This document shows, one piece after another, positions 51,891 through 61,467 of a DNA stretch of 64,000 bases. The notes beneath the pieces were generated by a model that had not been told where the DNA came from, ran no database searches, and worked only from the letters and a program-made list of their open reading frames with translations. Both the position numbers and the translations under genes were made by a program. This stretch comes from Agrobacterium cavarae. GTDB taxonomy: Bacteria > Pseudomonadota > Alphaproteobacteria > Rhizobiales > Rhizobiaceae. How positions within the stretch are numbered: the first letter of the stretch is position 1; every line of letters begins with the position of its first letter. Location of the stretch: assembly GCF_004310285.1 (NCBI RefSeq), contig NZ_SISF01000032.1, positions 62,001-126,000 of the forward strand, read 5' to 3'.

Positions 51891-51993
51891 GCACTTATGT
51901 TCAAACATACCGCATGTTGGTTCGTATGGAGAATTGCCGATCTCCATGCATGACGCCAAGGCCCGTCGGATGTTCGAAATACGGAATGAAAGT

Positions 51994-52335
51994 TCAGGCG
52001 GCGCGCTTGCCGTCGAATTGCGCGATCCCATTGCGGAGCTCGTCGGCGGCACAGCGCAGAAGGTTGGTCATCTGATCATGGATGACATCATCGGTAACGC
52101 CGACGCCGGCGGCGACGAAATCGTCGTGCAGCTTGTTGAACATCGCGTCGTCGCCTTCGCGGCCGATGGACGCGGCAACGATCTCGCTGGCGTAGGAATT
52201 GGCGTCGTCCTTGTGCATTAGGGATGCAGCCCAAAGGCCCATCAACCTGCTGCGCATGCCGTGAAGACGGAAGCTCAGTTCCTCTTCGTGAAAATACAAA
52301 TTCTCGAGCGCTTTACCGCGTTGTCTCAGACCCAT
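51994..52335 (-). CDS. DUF1476 protein, divergent ATPase zeta-subunit homologue
   Basis: This 113-residue helical protein matches the DUF1476 family, whose Paracoccus member (zeta) inhibits the F1-ATPase. The core MRSRLMGLWAASLM aligns with the family's RRNKLLGLWAA motif, and GREGDDAMFNKLHDDF with its GDDDVFRKV region. The N-terminus (GLRQRGKALENLYFHEEE) departs from the usual FDKREEAFEKKF, so this may be a divergent paralogue. The start at 52335 has GGGG about nine bases upstream. It is divergent from purC, a common neighbour of DUF1476. Confidence 0.78.
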   Translation of the reverse strand: MGLRQRGKALENLYFHEEELSFRLHGMRSRLMGLWAASLMHKDDANSYASEIVAASIGREGDDAMFNKLHDDFVAAGVGVTDDVIHDQMTNLLRCAADELRNGIAQFDGKRAA

Positions 52336-52582
52336 GATTATACCCCGTTTTACTATGTCGTTATTTGCGTCCTCTTGATCGGGACACCACTGTTCTAGAA
52401 TACAACTATTGAAAAAGCGTAACTTTGAGATGTTGCCTTGGAACAGCCAAAAACAGGGTTGAAGAATTGCAAACAACCGCGTGCCGTCGCATTGTGAAAT
52501 GGCTTCTTTTCCGCTATGGGACCGCTTCAAGAAACGAAACGACCGCCATCAGCACCGGCGCTAAAACAAGAGATATGTCACT

Positions 52583-53347
52583 ATGAACCGTCGCCGCCGA
52601 ATCTACGAAGGCAAGGCCAAGATCCTGTATGAAGGTCCGGAACCCGGAACGCTCATCCAGTTCTTCAAGGATGATGCGACTGCTTTCAATAAAAAGAAGC
52701 ATGAAGTCATCGACGGCAAGGGCGTTCTGAACAACCGCATCTCGGAATACGTCTTCACGCATCTGAACAAGATCGGCATTCCCACCCACTTCATCCGCCG
52801 CCTGAACATGCGCGAGCAGTTGATCAAGGAAGTGGAGATGATCCCGCTCGAGGTTGTCGTGCGCAACGTTGCGGCAGGCTCGCTCTCCAAGCGCCTCGGC
52901 ATTGATGAAGGCGTTGTGCTGCCTCGCTCGATCATCGAGTTCTATTACAAGTCGGATGCGCTGGAAGACCCGATGGTCTCCGAGGAGCACATCACTGCGT
53001 TTGGCTGGGCCAACCCCGCCGAACTCGACGACATCATGGCGCTTGCCATTCGCGTCAACGATTTCCTTTCCGGTCTTTTCCTCGGCGTCGGCATTCAGCT
53101 CGTCGATTTCAAGATCGAATGCGGCCGTCTGTTCGAAGGCGATATGATGCGCATTATCCTGGCGGATGAAATTTCGCCGGATAGCTGCCGCCTGTGGGAT
53201 ATCGAGACGCAGGAAAAGATGGACAAGGACCGCTTTCGCCGCGATATGGGTGGGCTTGTGGAAGCCTATTCGGAAGTGGCGCGCCGTCTCGGCATCATCA
53301 ATGAAAACGAACCGATCCGCGGCACAGGCCCGGTTCTCGTCAAGTGA
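52583..53347 (+). CDS. purC: SAICAR synthetase
   Basis: PurC joins aspartate to CAIR in purine synthesis. The N-terminal [14 protein letters not shown] and the signature [18 protein letters not shown] with [13 protein letters not shown] are clear. At 254 residues it is the short bacterial type. It heads purC-purS-purQ, with purS starting 18 bases later and purQ about 120 bases after purS. Confidence 0.97.
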
Positions 53348-53364
53348 AATCAGGAGACCATCAG

Positions 53365-53607
53365 GTGATCAAGGCACGGGTGACTGTTACGCTGAAGAAC
53401 GGCGTTCTCGATCCGCAGGGTAAGGCAATCGAAGGCGCGCTGGGCAGCCTCGGTTTTGACGGCGTGGGCCAGGTCCGTCAGGGCAAGGTCTTCGATCTTG
53501 AACTGAACACCACCGACAAGGCCAAAGCCGAAGAAAACCTGAAGGCGATGTGCGAGAAGCTGCTCGCCAACACCGTCATCGAAAACTACGCGATCGCCAT
53601 CCTCTAG
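53365..53607 (+). CDS. purS: Phosphoribosylformylglycinamidine synthase subunit PurS
   Basis: PurS is the small structural subunit of the three-part FGAM synthase with PurQ and PurL. The 80-residue protein opens with IKARVTVTLKNGVLDPQGKA and ends with VIENYAIAIL, both typical. The start is a GTG at 53365 with AGGAG eight bases upstream; a GTG at 53344 overlapping purC is possible but has no ribosome site. Confidence 0.95.
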   Translation: MIKARVTVTLKNGVLDPQGKAIEGALGSLGFDGVGQVRQGKVFDLELNTTDKAKAEENLKAMCEKLLANTVIENYAIAIL

Positions 53608-53725
53608 GGCAAGTGTGGTGAACGATGGTTCACCTCCATTGCTCTTAACTCTTTGTTTGACGCATTTTCCATGCAGACCGCAGGCACTCTTGCTGGAAAT
53701 GCTCTGAATTTCGGAGCCAAGGCCC

Positions 53726-54397
53726 ATGAAATCCGCAGTCGTCCAGCTTCCTGGCCTCAATCGCGACCGTGACATGATCGCGGCCTTGACGAAGATTTCA
53801 GGTCAGGCGCCCGTCACCATCTGGCAGACGGAAACCCAGATCCCGGATGTCGATCTGATCGTCATCCCCGGCGGCTTCTCCTATGGCGATTACCTTCGCT
53901 GTGGCGCGATCGCCGCCCGCATGCCCGTCATGCAGGCGATCCGCGAAAAGGCTGAACAGGGCGTCAAGGTTCTGGGTGTCTGCAACGGCTTTCAGATTTT
54001 GGTCGAGGCCGGCATGTTGCCCGGCGCCTTGATGCGCAATGCCTCGCTCAAATTCGTCTGCCGTGAAGTCAAGCTCGAGGTCGTCAACAACGACACGGAG
54101 TTTACCCGCACCTACGACAAGGGCCAGATCATCCGCTCTCCCGTCGCCCATCACGATGGCAACTACTTCGTCGAAGCCGACGAGTTGAAGGCGATGGAAG
54201 ACAATGGCCAGGTGGTGTTCCGTTACGCCGAAGGTACCAATCCGAATGGTTCGCTGAACGATATTGCCGGCGTCATCAACGACAAGGGCAATGTTCTCGG
54301 CATGATGCCGCATCCGGAAAACCTGATCGAAGCGGCGCATGGCGGCAAGGATGGCCGAGGCATATTTGCCTCAGCGCTTGGCGTGATCGCTGCCTGA
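53726..54397 (+). CDS. purQ: Phosphoribosylformylglycinamidine synthase subunit PurQ
   Basis: PurQ is the glutamine amidotransferase subunit of FGAM synthase. The nucleophile lies in GVCNGFQIL near residue 87, the Gly-rich [12 protein letters not shown] precedes it, and the catalytic His-x-Glu lies in MMPHPENL near the end. It is 223 residues. The 118-base gap after purS holds no gene. A strong terminator follows, so purL must be elsewhere. Confidence 0.97.
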
Positions 54398-54411
54398 TAT
54401 GAGACACATCC

Positions 54412-54440
54412 AGCCGGGCGCATCCGCCCGGCTTTATTTT
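54412..54440 (+). terminator. Intrinsic terminator of purC-purS-purQ
   Basis: A 9-bp GC-rich perfect stem (AGCCGGGCG at 54412-54420 with CGCCCGGCT at 54425-54433) around a CATC loop is followed by TTATTTTT, 14 bases beyond purQ. Confidence 0.92.
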
Positions 54441-54463
54441 TGCAGCTCATGCTGGATTGAAGA

Positions 54464-54868
54464 ATGAACCATATCCTTTCTGGACGTTCCATTGGCATTG
54501 CCGCTGTGGCCCTCGCTGCACTCGCACTGGCCGCATGCCAGCCAAAGCCTGAGCCCCCAACGGCCGCGTCGCAGGCCGCCCTTCCGGTCATGGAGCGCGT
54601 TGCGCTCGGCGCCAATGCCTGCTGGTTCAAGTCTGGCGATCCGGCATTCAAGGCCTATCGCCTGGCACCGGAACTCAACTCCTTCTCCGGTCGCCCCCGT
54701 ATTCTGCTCGTTCCGCGTAACAGCCCGGAATCACGCCCGATGCTGGTGGTGCAGGCCGAAGGCAATCCGGCAAACCTCCAGGCCTTCGGCCCTGTCATGA
54801 ACGACGGTCATGCACCGCGCATTTCCGCCGACATCAAGCGCTGGGCCAATGGCGGCAAGGGCTGCTGA
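54464..54868 (+). CDS. Small lipoprotein of unknown function
   Basis: This 134-residue protein has a lipoprotein signal peptide ending in the lipobox ALAAC (Cys at about residue 25), so it is probably membrane-anchored in the periplasm. The mature part holds two further cysteines (NACWFKSGD and the C-terminal GKGC), which could form a disulfide, and an RPRILLVPRNSPESRPMLVV strand pair. No family was recognised. It lies after the purQ terminator and so has its own promoter. Confidence 0.75.
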   Translation: MNHILSGRSIGIAAVALAALALAACQPKPEPPTAASQAALPVMERVALGANACWFKSGDPAFKAYRLAPELNSFSGRPRILLVPRNSPESRPMLVVQAEGNPANLQAFGPVMNDGHAPRISADIKRWANGGKGC

Positions 54869-54880
54869 CAGCCAACCCAA

Positions 54881-54904
54881 GGGGCCACGACCGATTGTGG
54901 TCCC
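54881..54904 (+). terminator. Possible hairpin terminator after the lipoprotein gene
   Basis: An 8-bp stem with one G-T pair (GGGGCCAC with GTGGTCCC) lies 13 bases past the stop. There is no clear T-run, so the call is weak. Confidence 0.35.
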
Positions 54905-55053
54905 TCTGAAAGCCCCCCGAAAGCCCACGGCGGCTCTGCATCGAGCGCCGTCAACAAGATCATGATTGCCGAAAGCGCATAGACTTGCTTTTTGCCGTTT
55001 CTTGCCGCTATTAGCCAAAGCCATCAGCAATTGAATGAGATGGCAGACCCACC

Positions 55054-55551
55054 ATGTCCCTTCCCGATAAAGCCTTCCCAGTATCCTGGGATCAGTTTCA
55101 CCGCGATGCCCGCGCGCTGGCGTGGCGTCTTGCCGGCCTGAACCAGGAGTTCAGGGCCATCGTCTGCATCACCCGTGGCGGTCTCGTTCCGGCAGCGATC
55201 ATTTCCCGCGAACTCAACATCCGCCTGATCGACACGGTATGCATTGCCACCCGCCACGATTACCTGAATCAGGGCGATACCGTTCTGCTGAAGGGCATCT
55301 CTCCAGAACTGTTGGAAAAGTCCGGTGAAGGCATTCTCGTCGTCGACGATCTGACCGATACCGGCAAGACCGCATTGGAAGTGCGCGAGATGCTGCCAAA
55401 GGCGCATTTTGCCTGCGTCTATGCCAAGCCAACCGGCGTTCCGACAATCGACACCTTCGTCACCGAAGTGAGCCAGGACACCTGGATCTATTTCCCGTGG
55501 GACATGGGCTTCACCTATCAGGAGCCGATTGCCAAGGGCGCGCCCGGCTGA
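55054..55551 (+). CDS. gpt: Xanthine/guanine phosphoribosyltransferase
   Basis: This purine-salvage enzyme joins xanthine or guanine to PRPP. The PRPP-binding motif [17 protein letters not shown] lies near residue 90, and [19 protein letters not shown] near residue 37 is typical of XGPRT. At 165 residues the length is normal. The gene stands alone and faces the convergent soxR gene. Confidence 0.94.
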
Positions 55552-55652
55552 GCACCACGCAAAATTCACGTCGCGCGAAATCCTGATGGGTTTTGCGCGA
55601 CGCGGTCCGATCCTGTTTCCCAGATCGCCTTACAAGCCTGCGATCTCTTGCC

Positions 55653-56120
55653 TCACTCCCCAGGCTCGAGCAGCACCGGCCCAGGGCCCTTGTCCCCCAA
55701 TATATCTGCCGGATTGCGCAGCGGACATTCATCCGTCGAAAGACAACCACAGCCAATGCAACCGGTGAGCTGATTGCGCAGCCGCGTAAGCCGCGCGATG
55801 CGGTCATCCAGTTGCGCTTGCCAATGGGTGGCGAGCCTTTGCCAGTCCTTTCCCGTCGGTGTGCGGCCATCCGGCAGGGTGTTCAGAGCCTGCTGTATCT
55901 CCTTGAGCGGGATGCCTGCCCTTTGTGCCACCTTGATGATGGCGATGCGCCTCAGCACGTCGCGCCCATAGCGGCGGTGGTTCGAGCTGTTGCGCCAGCC
56001 CTTGATCAGCCCTTCGGCCTCGTAAAAGTGGAGCGTCGAGACCGCCACGCCAGCGCGCTCGGCAACATCGCCGACCGAGAGGTCGCGTACGAGAGGAATC
56101 TGCTGAAGTTTTTTCGTCAT
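55653..56120 (-). CDS. soxR: Redox-sensing MerR-family regulator SoxR
   Basis: This 155-residue MerR-type activator has an N-terminal winged helix (LSVGDVAERAGVAVSTLHFYE), a dimerisation helix and the [2Fe-2S] cysteine motif of SoxR. The motif is visible as CIGCGCLSTDEC near residue 120, matching C-x2-C-x-C-x5-C. Redox-active drugs or superoxide oxidise the cluster and switch on target promoters. The start at 56120 is the first ATG giving a normal SoxR N-terminus; an upstream extension is not needed. A classical operator lies just in front of it. Confidence 0.95.
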   Translation of the reverse strand: MTKKLQQIPLVRDLSVGDVAERAGVAVSTLHFYEAEGLIKGWRNSSNHRRYGRDVLRRIAIIKVAQRAGIPLKEIQQALNTLPDGRTPTGKDWQRLATHWQAQLDDRIARLTRLRNQLTGCIGCGCLSTDECPLRNPADILGDKGPGPVLLEPGE

Positions 56121-56129
56121 GCCCGTTGA

Positions 56130-56147
56130 CCTCAACTTTACTTGAGG
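56130..56147. promoter_or_regulatory. SoxR operator (soxbox)
   Basis: CCTCAACTTTACTTGAGG has the 6-bp inverted arms CCTCAA and TTGAGG around six bases. It differs from the E. coli soxS box at only two central positions. It lies 10 bases upstream of soxR and about 42 bases upstream of the rightward ORF at 56190, so it could serve both directions. A TTGACC hexamer at 56126-56131 may be the -35 of a rightward promoter. Confidence 0.9.
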
Positions 56148-56189
56148 AACTACCACTTGGAGGTCAACGCTGAAAGGGGGTATCGATCC

Positions 56190-56294
56190 ATGACAGACAC
56201 AACGCTCTCGCTCCGCATTATTCTGGGCAGCGCCCGTGCCAAGGGCCACATGCGAATTGATCTGCAAAATATGGAGATCAATCACATGCGGTAG
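56190..56294 (+). pseudogene. 34-codon ORF behind the SoxR operator, probable gene remnant
   Basis: The ATG at 56190 is preceded by an AGGGGG site nine bases upstream and is placed for control by the SoxR operator. It opens MTDTTLSLRIILGSARAKGH and stops at a TAG after 34 codons. The opening could be the start of a flavoprotein-like or other SoxR-induced gene cut short by a deletion, but it is too short to classify. It ends only 13 bases before the stop of the convergent phosphatase gene. It may also be a genuine small protein. Confidence 0.45.
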
Positions 56295-56307
56295 TGATCG
56301 GGACGGA

Positions 56308-56886
56308 TCACGTATTCCATGCTCGGATGACTGGTTCTTCCATATTGTGTTCGTAGCCCAATACGCTGACAGTTGCGGTATCGAGGACGAAGCTTCTCCC
56401 GTGTTCAGGCGGAAGCCCGAGCCACCTGGCTGCCAGCACGCGCAGGAAATGTGAACTTGAAAAGATCAGGATGGTCGTGCCGCTGGCCCTGATATCATGG
56501 ATAATGCGATCTGCTCGCACACCCACCTGCTCAATGCTCTCACCACCGGGAGCGCCGTCACGGAATAGCTGCCAGCCGGGCGCCGTCTTGTGGATGTCCT
56601 TTGTGGTGACGCCTTCATATTGTCCGTAATCCCACTCGTTGAGGTCCGACTTGACAGACATTGCGGACGCAAATCCCGCAAGCTCGCATGTTCTGCGCGC
56701 TCGCAAAGACGGGCTCGACCACACCACATCAGGGGTAATCCCTTTCAAGCGCTCGGCGAGCAATCTTGCAGCATTTTCGCCGTTGGGCGTCAGATCGATA
56801 TCCGACCTTCCGGTATGACGACCGGACACTGACCAGGCAGTCTCGCCGTGTCGGACCAGAAAAATCTGTGGCAGCGATGTTTGCAT
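56308..56886 (-). CDS. Histidine-phosphatase-family protein lacking the second catalytic His
   Basis: The 192-residue protein belongs to the phosphoglycerate-mutase-like family. The phosphohistidine motif FLVRHGETAWS is intact, as are the LNEWDYGQYEG acid and RARRTCEL arginine motifs. However, the position usually read as SHGHFLR is SSSHFLR here, so the conserved His and Gly are replaced by Ser-Ser. A His lies one residue beyond. The enzyme may be impaired or use another residue. It lies on the minus strand beyond the soxR operator. Confidence 0.85.
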   Translation of the reverse strand: MQTSLPQIFLVRHGETAWSVSGRHTGRSDIDLTPNGENAARLLAERLKGITPDVVWSSPSLRARRTCELAGFASAMSVKSDLNEWDYGQYEGVTTKDIHKTAPGWQLFRDGAPGGESIEQVGVRADRIIHDIRASGTTILIFSSSHFLRVLAARWLGLPPEHGRSFVLDTATVSVLGYEHNMEEPVIRAWNT

Positions 56887-57018
56887 CGCGTATCCCTTCC
56901 ATGAGTGTTGATCCGAGGTTAGATAAGCTCGCTCGTCGTTTCAAGATCGTGTTGTCCCGTTCCGTTGCTGGCGTGGGCGCAGGACCCGAAACCTTCCAGG
57001 TACCGCTATATCTTGTAC

Positions 57019-57070
57019 CGCATCGCTTCCGCCTGCCCCACGCATCGCTTCCGCCTGCCCCACGCATCGC
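57019..57070. repeat. 22-bp direct tandem repeat
   Basis: Two perfect head-to-tail copies of a 22-base unit beginning CGCATCGCTTCCGCCTGCCC are followed by the first eight bases of a third copy. The unit is not a multiple of three, so it is unlikely to lie inside a conserved coding frame. Confidence 0.85.
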
Positions 57071-57239
57071 AAACCTTGTGGATAGGCCAACACTTGTTGC
57101 TTGTACGCAACAACGACACGTTCCCAGAATTCCGCCATATCGCTCCTTCCACCACCACAGGCAAGCTTCACGCAAGGTAAGCGGCCAGCCATAATGCGCC
57201 GCAAGTGCCTGATATTTATGGAAGGTTTTTCTTTCCCCG

Positions 57240-57259
57240 TTTTCCACACCCTATCCACA
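57240..57259. promoter_or_regulatory. Two DnaA-like boxes upstream of nrdJ
   Basis: TTTTCCACA (57240-57248) and CTATCCACA (57251-57259) each differ from the DnaA box TTATCCACA at a single position and lie in the same orientation two bases apart. Nrd genes of other bacteria are DnaA-controlled, so a role here is plausible inference. Confidence 0.4.
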
Positions 57260-57273
57260 CCACATCTTGTGGT
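57259..57273. promoter_or_regulatory. 15-bp palindrome upstream of nrdJ
   Basis: ACCACATCTTGTGGT is a perfect 6-bp inverted repeat around TCT, overlapping the second DnaA-like box by one base. The binding factor is unknown. Confidence 0.4.
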
Positions 57274-57497
57274 AAATGAACCCTTACAAACTAGGCCTTG
57301 ACGGAATCAGCACGTTTTCTAAAAGTAGATCCATGTTGCGGCGGCAACGGAATCGGCAGGTTCATCTGCGGTTCTCTCCTGTATCAGTTCACGCGATGTC
57401 TTGCGTTCCAACCACGAGGGGTGAGGAACGCTGGGGCGTGTCCATGTTCGGGAGCTGCCAAAAACATAAGGCGGGGTCTGGCGACAAGAAACTGTTA

Positions 57498-57513
57498 ATA
57501 CTATATATAGTAT
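57498..57513. promoter_or_regulatory. NrdR-box-like palindrome
   Basis: ATACTATATATAGTAT is a perfect 16-bp palindrome whose core CTATATATAG fits the NrdR consensus core CwAtATaTwG. It lies about 150 bases upstream of nrdJ. NrdR boxes usually occur in pairs; no second clear copy was seen at the expected spacing. Confidence 0.65.
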
Positions 57514-57663
57514 GCTTGCAGCCATCATAACCACGACATAAGGGAACGACATCCAAGGATGATCGTTTCCATTCATCGGCAGACAACTGGTGGCGCATGG
57601 CCCATGCGACGCCGGAACGATATTTTGCGCCCGATCAGGCGCCAACGGACAAGGACACCAACG

Positions 57664-60600
57664 ATGCGCATCGAACGCCGCTTTACGAAGCCCGGCCAGT
57701 CGCCCTACGCGGAAATCGAATTCCGCAAGGCAATCAGTGAAATCAAGAATCCGGATGGTTCCGTCGTGTTCCGTCTCGCGGATATTGATGTGCCGGCGCA
57801 GTTCAGCCAGGTGGCGACCGACGTTCTGGCGCAGAAGTATTTCCGCAAGGCAGGCGTTCCGAAGGTTCTGAAGAAGGTCGAAGAGAATGATGTCCCGTCC
57901 TTCCTGTGGCGCTCCGTTGCCGATACGGCTGCCATGAAGGATCTGCCTGAAGCTGAGCGTTATGGCTCGGAAATCGACGCGCGTCAGGTTTTCGATCGCC
58001 TCGCCGGCACCTGGGCCTATTGGGGCTGGAAGGGCAAGTACTTCTCGTCCGAAGAAGATGCTCTCGCCTTCCGCGATGAGCTTGCCTACATGCTCGCCAC
58101 CCAGCGCGTCGCGCCGAACTCGCCACAGTGGTTCAACACTGGCCTGCACTGGGCCTATGGCATCGACGGTCCGGGCCAGGGCCACTTCTATGTCGACCCC
58201 TTCACCGGCAAGCTGACCAAGTCCAAGTCCGCTTACGAGCATCCGCAGCCGCATGCCTGCTTCATCCAGTCCGTTGAAGACGACCTCGTCAACGAAGGCG
58301 GCATCATGGACCTTTGGGTTCGTGAAGCACGTCTGTTCAAATACGGCTCCGGCACCGGTTCCAACTTCTCCTATCTGCGTGGCGAAGGCGAAAAGCTCTC
58401 CGGCGGCGGCAAGTCCTCCGGCCTGATGAGCTTCCTCAAGATCGGTGACCGTGCAGCCGGCGCCATCAAGTCCGGTGGCACCACCCGTCGTGCGGCCAAG
58501 ATGGTCGTCGTCGATGCCGATCACCCCGATATCGAAGCCTATATCGACTGGAAGGTGAACGAAGAGCAGAAGGTTGCCGCCCTCGTCACCGGTTCCAAGA
58601 TCGTCGCCAAGCATCTCAAGGCCATCATGAAGGCCTGCCTCAACTGCGAAGGCGATAACGGCGATTGCTTCGATCCTGCCAAGAACCCTGCCCTCAAGCG
58701 CGAAATCCGCGCAGCCAAGAAGGATCAGGTTCCGGAAAACTACATCAAGCGCGTCATCCAGTTCGCCCAGCAGGGCTACAAGGATATCGAATTCAAGACC
58801 TATGATACGGACTGGGATTCGGAAGCCTACCTCACGGTCTCCGGCCAGAACTCCAACAACTCTGTTTCGTTGAAGGACGACTTCCTGCGCGCTGTCGAAA
58901 GCGACGGCGACTGGAACCTCACCGCTCGCCGCGACGGCAGAGTGATGAAGACGCTGAAGGCACGCGACCTGTGGGAGAAGATCTCGCATGCCGCCTGGGC
59001 CTCTGCCGATCCGGGTCTGCACTTCAACACCACCATGAACGACTGGCACACCTCGCCAGCCGCTGGTTCCATCCGCGCATCCAACCCATGCTCGGAATAC
59101 ATGTTCCTGGACGATACGGCCTGCAACCTTGCCTCGCTGAACCTCCTCCAGTTCAAGGACGCGGCCACCAAGAAGATCAACATTGCCGATTACGAACATG
59201 CGGTGCGCCTGTGGACCGTCGTTCTCGAAGTCTCGGTGATGATGGCGCAGTTCCCATCGCGCCAGATTGCGGAACGCTCCTACGAGTACCGCACGCTCGG
59301 CCTCGGCTACGCCAATATCGGCGGCCTGCTGATGTCGTCGGGCATTCCTTATGACAGCGATGAAGGTCGTGCGATTGCAGGTGCCTTGACCGCGATCATG
59401 ACCGGTGTGTCCTACGCCACGTCTGCTGAAATGGCAGGCGAGCTTGGCCCCTTCCCGGGCTTTGCGCCGAACCGCGACAACATGCTGCGCGTCATCCGCA
59501 ACCACCGCCGTGCGGCCCAGGGCCTTGCCTATGGTTACGAAGGCCTGTCGGTAAACCCGGTTCCACTGATCCATGCCGATTGCACCGATCAGGAGCTGAT
59601 CAAGCACGCCGTTGCTGCCTGGGACAAGGCGCTGGAACTTGGCGAGCAGAACGGTTACCGCAACGCCCAGACCACCGTTATCGCACCGACAGGTACGATC
59701 GGCCTCGTCATGGATTGCGACACCACCGGTATCGAGCCTGATTTTGCGCTGGTGAAGTTCAAGAAGCTTGCTGGCGGCGGCTACTTCAAGATCATCAACC
59801 GTGCGGTTCCGGAATCGCTGCGTTCGCTCGGCTACTCCGAAAGCCAGATCGCAGAGATCGAAGCTTACGCTGTCGGCCACGGCAACCTGAACCAGGCGCC
59901 TGGCATCAACCCCGGCTCGCTGAAGTCCAAGGGCTTCACCGATGAGAAGATCGAAGCCGTCAATGGCGCGCTGAAAAGCGCCTTCGACATCAAGTTCGTC
60001 TTCAACCAGTGGACGCTCAGCGCTGACTTCCTGAAGGACACGCTGAAGGTTTCCGACGAGCAGCTTTCCGACATCAGCTTCAACCTTCTGGAGCATCTCG
60101 GCTTCTCGAAGAAGGACATCGAAGCAGCAAATGTTCACGTTTGCGGTGCGATGACGCTGGAAGGCGCGCCGTTCCTGAAGGATGAGCATCTGTCCGTCTT
60201 CGATTGCGCCAACCCCTGCGGCAAGATCGGCAAGCGTTATCTCTCGGTCGAGTCCCACATCCGCATGATGGCGGCGGCACAGCCCTTCATCTCGGGCGCG
60301 ATCTCCAAGACAATCAACATGCCGAACGATGCCACGGTGGAAGATTGCGGTGCAGCCTACATGCTGTCCTGGAAGCTGGCACTGAAGGCAAACGCGCTTT
60401 ACCGCGATGGCTCCAAGCTTTCCCAGCCGCTCAACGCTTCGCTGGTGGAAGATGAGGACGACGAGGACGCCATGGAAGAGCTGCTGGCTCAGCCACAGGC
60501 AGCCCAGGCCGTCACCATCACCGAAAAGATCGTCGAGCGCATCATCGAGCGCGTCGTTCGCAGCCAGGAAAAGCTGCCGACCCGCCGCAAGGGCTACACC

Positions 60601-61467
60601 CAGAAGGCCAAGATCGGTGGTCACACCATCTTCCTTCGCACCGGCGAATATGACGACGGCCGTCTTGGCGAAATCTTCCTTGATATGAACAAGGAAGGCT
60701 CGGCACTGCGCGCCTTCATCAACAACTTCGCGATTTCCGTGTCGCTCGGCCTGCAATATGGCGTGCCGCTGGAAGAATATGTCGACGCCTTCACTTTCAC
60801 CAAGTTCGAACCTGCCGGCATGGTCACGGGCAACGACGCGATCAAGAACGCCACGTCGATCCTCGACTACGTGTTCCGCGAACTCGCCATCTCCTATCTC
60901 GGTCGCCACGATCTGGCGCATGTCGATACGTCGGACTTCTCCAACACCGCACTTGGTCGCGGCGTGTCCGAAGGCAAGGCAGATGTCGTCTCCAAGGGCC
61001 TGACCCGCGGCTACAAGCCAACGCTCGTCTCCAACAATGGAAGCGAACGCGGCTCGGCGGAAATCAAGGGCTCGGCAACGGCAGCCCCTGCCCGCGCCTC
61101 GGCCAACGTGACGGCGATTTCCGGCAACGCAGCCCGCAAGCTGGAGGCAACAGTTTCAGTCGCCACATCGGAAGTCGTCGCCTTCAAGCGTGACTATGAG
61201 GAACGCGCCCGCGAACTGGCCGAAGAGATTGCAGAAGAAGTGGTCGAAACCGAACAGAGCGCCACCGGCCTCTTCTCGGACAAGGCCGCTGCCGACGCAG
61301 CCTCTGCCAAGGCCGACGCCAAGAAGGTGGAAAACGAACGCCGCATGCGCTCGATTGCCCAAGGTTATACGGGCAACATGTGCTCCGAGTGCCAGAACTT
61401 CACGATGGTCCGGAATGGGACTTGCGAGAAGTGCGATACTTGTGGCGCGACGAGCGGTTGCAGCTAA
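57664..61467 (+). CDS. nrdJ: Adenosylcobalamin-dependent ribonucleotide reductase (class II)
   Basis: This 1267-residue enzyme makes deoxyribonucleotides using vitamin B12, with or without oxygen. Visible features are the N-terminal [21 protein letters not shown], a [10 protein letters not shown] motif, the active-site [20 protein letters not shown] stretch, the [16 protein letters not shown] motif and a C-terminal cysteine cluster (CSECQNF, CEKCDTC) that regenerates the active site. The ATG at 57664 has AAGGA upstream; an in-frame ATG at 57559 would add 35 unrelated residues. The upstream region carries NrdR- and DnaA-like sites. Confidence 0.97.

Follow-up and report, generated by a model that had tools for sequence, protein, structure and literature searches.

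A SoxR operator orphaned beside the remnant of an FMN reductase gene in Agrobacterium cavarae

SoxR regulators carry a [2Fe-2S] motif, C-x2-C-x-C-x5-C, and control promoters in which the operator lies within an overlong spacer of 19 bp between the −35 and −10 elements; the protein binds between these elements and activates transcription when oxidised. The soxR–soxS locus of Escherichia coli shares SoxR, a near-identical operator and, putatively, a divergent long-spacer promoter with the DNA described here, but its target is the regulator SoxS, whereas the target here was very probably an enzyme that has since been lost. The SoxR protein of Agrobacterium tumefaciens, a member of the same genus, reportedly regulates itself, to go by the title of a published study, and in strain C58 it has a known target, atu5152. 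In Streptomyces coelicolor, the flavoprotein reductase SCO2478 is a confirmed SoxR target (PMC4146615). A flavoprotein reductase driven by SoxR is the feature that this regulon may share with the relatives discussed below.

We analysed a 64,000-nucleotide stretch of A. cavarae DNA (the window) in which soxR occupies positions 55653–56120 of the minus strand, with its ATG at 56118–56120 (genome coordinates G000:C7:117656–118120). Its 155-residue product is a redox-sensitive MerR-family regulator that matches PF09278 and PF13411 and scores 214 bits over residues 14–152 against the TIGR01950 equivalog model, which has a cut-off of 116.9. The translation includes the four-cysteine motif as CIGCGCLSTDEC, and the protein looks intact.

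The predicted SoxR operator, CCTCAACTTTACTTGAGG, lies at 56130–56147 (plus strand), between soxR, which starts at 56120, and a 34-codon open reading frame (ORF) at 56190–56294, leaving a gap of 9 bp to the soxR start. The assignment rests on the match of its letters and on the perfect box found at the equivalent position in three relatives (G010, G001 and G014). Within the window, CCTCAACTTTACTTGAGG matches only itself at up to three mismatches, against an expectation of 0.02 from shuffled sequences. A preliminary description had called the operator almost identical to the E. coli soxS box, and it indeed differs at two positions from that box, CCTCAAGTTAACTTGAGG. The exact CCTCAAGTTAACTTGAGG letters are present in 3 of 160 loci compared, two from Alcaligenes and one from Pseudomonas.

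Direct reading of the letters, together with a layout shared by the orthologues, points to a rightward SoxR-type promoter at 56126–56156 (plus strand). Its putative parts are a −35-like TTGACC (56126–56131), a spacer of 19 bp and a −10-like TACCAC (56151–56156). The last of these is weak, matching TATAAT at three of six positions, although the 19-bp spacing fits a SoxR-type promoter. A standard scan for sigma-70-type promoters covers spacers of 16–18 nt and, as a 19-bp spacer would lead one to expect, it returned no sites on either strand of 56050–56420. A scan of the same interval also found no terminator-like site.

The ORF begins with an ATG at 56190 and encodes 34 residues, MTDTTLSLRIILGSARAKGHMRIDLQNMEINHMR, with a stop codon ending at 56294. 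It ends 13 bp from a convergent histidine phosphatase gene (56308–56886, minus strand; PF00300, E = 6.5e-49), and these coordinates agree with the earlier account of a short ORF that stops just before its convergent neighbour. The ribosome site, which that account had considered well placed, is present as a purine run, GAAAGGGGG, but stands 9 nt from the ATG, compared with 6 nt in G010, so that this wording was slightly generous; the window carries four extra bases there. Further from the ATG, between the phosphatase gene and an nrdJ-like gene, inspection by eye reveals a tandemly duplicated 22-bp unit, gcatcgcttccgcctgccccac, at 57020–57063; names of flanking genes such as nrdJ are themselves readings of ORFs by eye.

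The first 18 codons of the ORF (56190–56243, plus strand) match the beginning of an NADPH-dependent FMN reductase gene by tblastn and by DNA alignment. Of these 18 residues, 16 are identical to those of the 191-residue protein of G010 (tblastn E = 6e-6), and both DNA and protein alignments identify the start and position of the ORF as orthologous to those of the intact gene. Searches of Pfam and NCBIfam with the 34-mer returned no family, including PF03358, whereas the intact G010 orthologue matches PF03358. By these sequence comparisons, the ORF is therefore a remnant of a PF03358 gene and not a member of the family. No further reductase pieces, such as a 3′ fragment, occur in 55500–57700 beyond chance words, and no moved copy is present in the A. 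cavarae genome at an E value of 0.001, save for a 40% paralogue covering residues 19–132 (G000:C16).

A DNA search with positions 55600–56330 against 61 genomes (A. cavarae itself plus 60 relatives, of which 36 share its genus) produced matches in 25. The preliminary description had proposed looking in relatives for a longer version of the ORF, and one is present in G010, G014, G007 and G027, where DNA matching the operator and first codons continues into an ORF of 190–191 residues. This ORF lies beside soxR in G014, and elsewhere, behind a SoxR box, in G007 and G027. The 191-residue product of the G010 gene belongs to the NADPH-dependent FMN reductases (PF03358, E = 3.4e-36) and matches the NCBIfam models SsuE, MsuE and ArsH, all below their cut-offs; proteins of known structure that are related to it in sequence include yeast YLR011w, azoreductases and YieF. 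The intact G010 gene occupies the equivalent place, as expected if, as had been suggested, a SoxR-induced gene was truncated by a deletion.

Alignment of G010 with the window (blastn) yields two blocks, 51955–56242 and 56298–61461, between which G010 has 627 bp and the window 55 bp, a net loss of about 572 bp. Identity is 91.5% over block 51994–55551, 95.3% over block 57664–61464 and 85.3% for soxR DNA, and the phosphatase gene is present at the equivalent place in G010. One genome per species was compared; an assembly error is conceivable, although the locus lies well inside a contig of 509,557 bp.

The 55 bp that stand for the 627 bp of G010 (56243–56297, plus strand) are a unique filler, which supplies the last 16 codons of the ORF and its stop; counted from the end of the 18 matching codons, it spans 56244–56297. 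The filler contains an 8-bp inverted repeat, ATTGATCT/AGATCAAT, within CACATGCG direct repeats, and the predicted fold of 56236–56320 beats all 200 shuffles (z = −3.07). It is single copy in its own genome at an E value of 0.01, and the other 38 genomes of the genus hold one weak 27-bp match only, in G022. An origin in a known mobile element or plasmid was considered and rejected, as only weak matches (E = 0.1) were found, in 2 of 72,556 plasmid records.

The gene is also missing from G001, a metagenome-assembled Agrobacterium genome that is 91% complete (CAJYTK010000007.1). G001 keeps the operator and leader up to window position 56168; beyond that point come a purine-rich stretch and seven codons from an ATG, which may correspond to those of the window. 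About 218 bp in G001 compare with 988 bp in the window (56169–57156). Neither the reductase gene nor the phosphatase gene is at this locus, and a search of the remainder of the G001 genome turned up no orthologue of the reductase. The junctions differ from that of the window, which suggests that the loss in G001 was a separate event. It is possible instead that a first deletion was shared and that a larger one followed in G001, a history favoured by the fact that soxR of G001 is closer to that of the window than is soxR of G010 (87.5% versus 85.3% for DNA, 98% versus 95% for protein). In contrast, block 51994–55551 is nearer to the window in G010 (91.5%, versus 88.9% in G001), and for the nrdJ block the two genomes hardly differ (95.3% in G010, 95.0% in G001).

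Reductase orthologues, defined by at least 63% identity to the query protein from G010, occur in 8 of 39 genomes of the genus (G010 included), and 31 lack one at this threshold; eight weaker places with 31–39% identity were set aside in this count. SoxR is found at an E value of 1e-20 in 33 of the 39. In all eight orthologues, a perfect CCTCAAN6TTGAGG ends 37–39 nt before the start codon, whether the gene is beside soxR (G010 and G014) or on a contig other than that of soxR (G007, G027, G024, G013, G003 and G034). In two of the latter, G024 and G027 (loci L128 and L030), inspection by eye shows an MFS-transporter-like ORF after the reductase gene, an arrangement that suggests a SoxR-driven reductase–efflux operon.

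The pairing extends beyond the genus. An even sample of 151 genomes of the family includes 17 with reductase matches (cut-off E = 1e-30) and 68 with SoxR matches. Ten of the 17 reductase matches are divergent from soxR across gaps of 77–109 bp, one is 538 bp from soxR and six are not its neighbours. Plasmid pSymB of Sinorhizobium meliloti (strain Ak57) carries annotated soxR and NAD(P)H-dependent oxidoreductase genes as a divergent pair with a box in the spacer. The same pair and box were located by tblastn in Sinorhizobium sp. K101, Shinella sp. PSBB067 and Microvirga lotononidis; both genes are annotated only in the S. meliloti record. These pairs share gene order and enzyme family with the window, but there the enzyme is intact, whereas the window retains an 18-codon stump. 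Deep conservation of the enzyme as a SoxR gene was considered and rejected: within 1,200-bp flanks of seven distant plasmid-borne homologues (five from Streptomyces, one from Rhizobium and one from Nitratireductor), a perfect box accompanies only that of S. lavendulae pSA3239, where it starts 98 nt upstream, and the other six have no box at up to two mismatches.

A whole-genome search of A. cavarae for CCTCAAN6TTGAGG with at most one mismatch gave 15 sites per strand, compared with three for a reversed-pattern control, and 2 of the 15 are perfect. The perfect box outside this locus (G000:C1:18980–18997; L125:3981) starts 81 bp before a VOC/glyoxalase-family gene. Orthologues of this gene (E = 1e-40) are present in 16 of the 39 genomes of the genus, A. 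cavarae included, and all 16 have a perfect box starting 77–91 bp upstream; in G021, G023, G030 and G033, the VOC gene is the divergent neighbour of soxR. Because a perfect box precedes the gene here and in every orthologue, SoxR probably keeps it as a target. One arm of the SoxR regulon has thus been lost and another probably persists, and the comparisons support the view that the genes for the FMN reductase and the VOC-family protein recur with SoxR boxes in the genus. In three genomes (G004, G005 and G035; L149, L150 and L151), the SoxR-boxed VOC gene has one in-frame TGA and is possibly another decaying SoxR target.

Three of the 13 one-mismatch sites were inspected, one on C9 and two on C12, with ORFs named by eye. 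One of the C12 sites, CCTCAACCGTGGTTGAGA (G000:C12:267910–267927; L127:2411), follows TTGACC and precedes an ornithine-cyclodeaminase-like ORF by 25 bp, which makes it a plausible promoter box for a possible further SoxR target. The C9 site falls inside a dus-like ORF. One other perfect box and one good one-mismatch candidate fit the earlier remark that SoxR controls few targets in Agrobacterium. Plasmid At of A. fabrum C58 also has a perfect box, at record position 155370 (L133:20371–20388), which may mark the place of atu5152. No FMN reductase was seen near this box among the listed features or the ORFs read; by eye, a short GNAT-like ORF that is absent from the feature list lies on one side of it and a small membrane-protein-like ORF on the other. 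We found no mention of atu5152 in the literature searched.

We conclude with high confidence that the ORF preserves the 5′ end of a SoxR-box NADPH-dependent FMN reductase gene lost by deletion. With the full-length gene intact in a related species, this would be ordinary gene loss and not the birth of a new tiny protein. In the ancestor, SoxR bound to the operator in its oxidised form would have compensated for the 19-bp spacer of the divergent promoter and turned on expression of the reductase, whose role was probably to dispose of quinones or other redox-cycling compounds. A deletion with a net loss of some 570 bp, which left a junction of about 55 bp, very probably then removed all but 18 codons, so that the promoter would now drive a dead stump. 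Retention of the operator probably reflects either its closeness to the soxR start, 9 bp away, or a relatively recent loss of the gene.

The preliminary description had also offered the option that SoxR controls a tiny protein. In favour of a functional 34-residue protein are the intact start codon and, upstream of it, a purine-rich ribosome site and a putative SoxR-type promoter, but the first half of this one is the beginning of an enzyme, and its second half comes from filler with that single weak match in the other 38 genomes. The sequence matches no Pfam or NCBIfam family and its ribosome-site spacing is looser than that of G010. A conserved small protein was rejected, as these comparisons show no conservation beyond codon 18, and we regard a functional 34-mer of any kind as very improbable, although the ORF may still be translated. 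It is very unlikely that the locus never had a whole reductase gene and that the 18-codon match reflects a recent partial import or chance. The patchy family, with orthologues in 8 of 39 genomes, would accommodate such an origin, but the match to G010 extends from soxR across the operator and leader to the start codon and beyond, the flanks are colinear, and the soxR–reductase pair recurs in G014 and in 10 of the 17 family-sample matches.

A different question is why the box persists. Compatible with the deletion of a reductase gene, though differing on this point, is the view that soxR autoregulation is the main reason for keeping the operator and that the stump is a bystander, to which we give somewhat less than an even chance. 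Nine base pairs separate the box from the soxR ATG, G001 retains it after losing the target gene, and relatives such as L005, in which soxR has neither a reductase nor a VOC gene as its divergent neighbour, keep a box where, by our reading, TTGACC-19-TATACC faces soxR; self-regulation is also what the published title on A. tumefaciens SoxR states. Against this, the good −35 element in the window points away from soxR, the 16–18-nt scan of both strands of 56050–56420 detected no promoter of the sigma-70 type, and recent loss by itself would account for retention. The deletion could also have made the SoxR-driven promoter a source of antisense RNA that lowers phosphatase expression, since the lack of a detected terminator-like site in 56050–56420 would let transcripts cross the phosphatase 3′ end under redox stress. 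We consider this quite unlikely; if true, it would be a new regulatory link born of gene loss.

The locus, as far as its sequence can tell, is an ordinary gene remnant, or pseudogene, beside an orphaned SoxR operator. It would represent a small SoxR regulon in decay, in which the regulator and its operator outlive the enzyme in both the window and G001, by one history or two.
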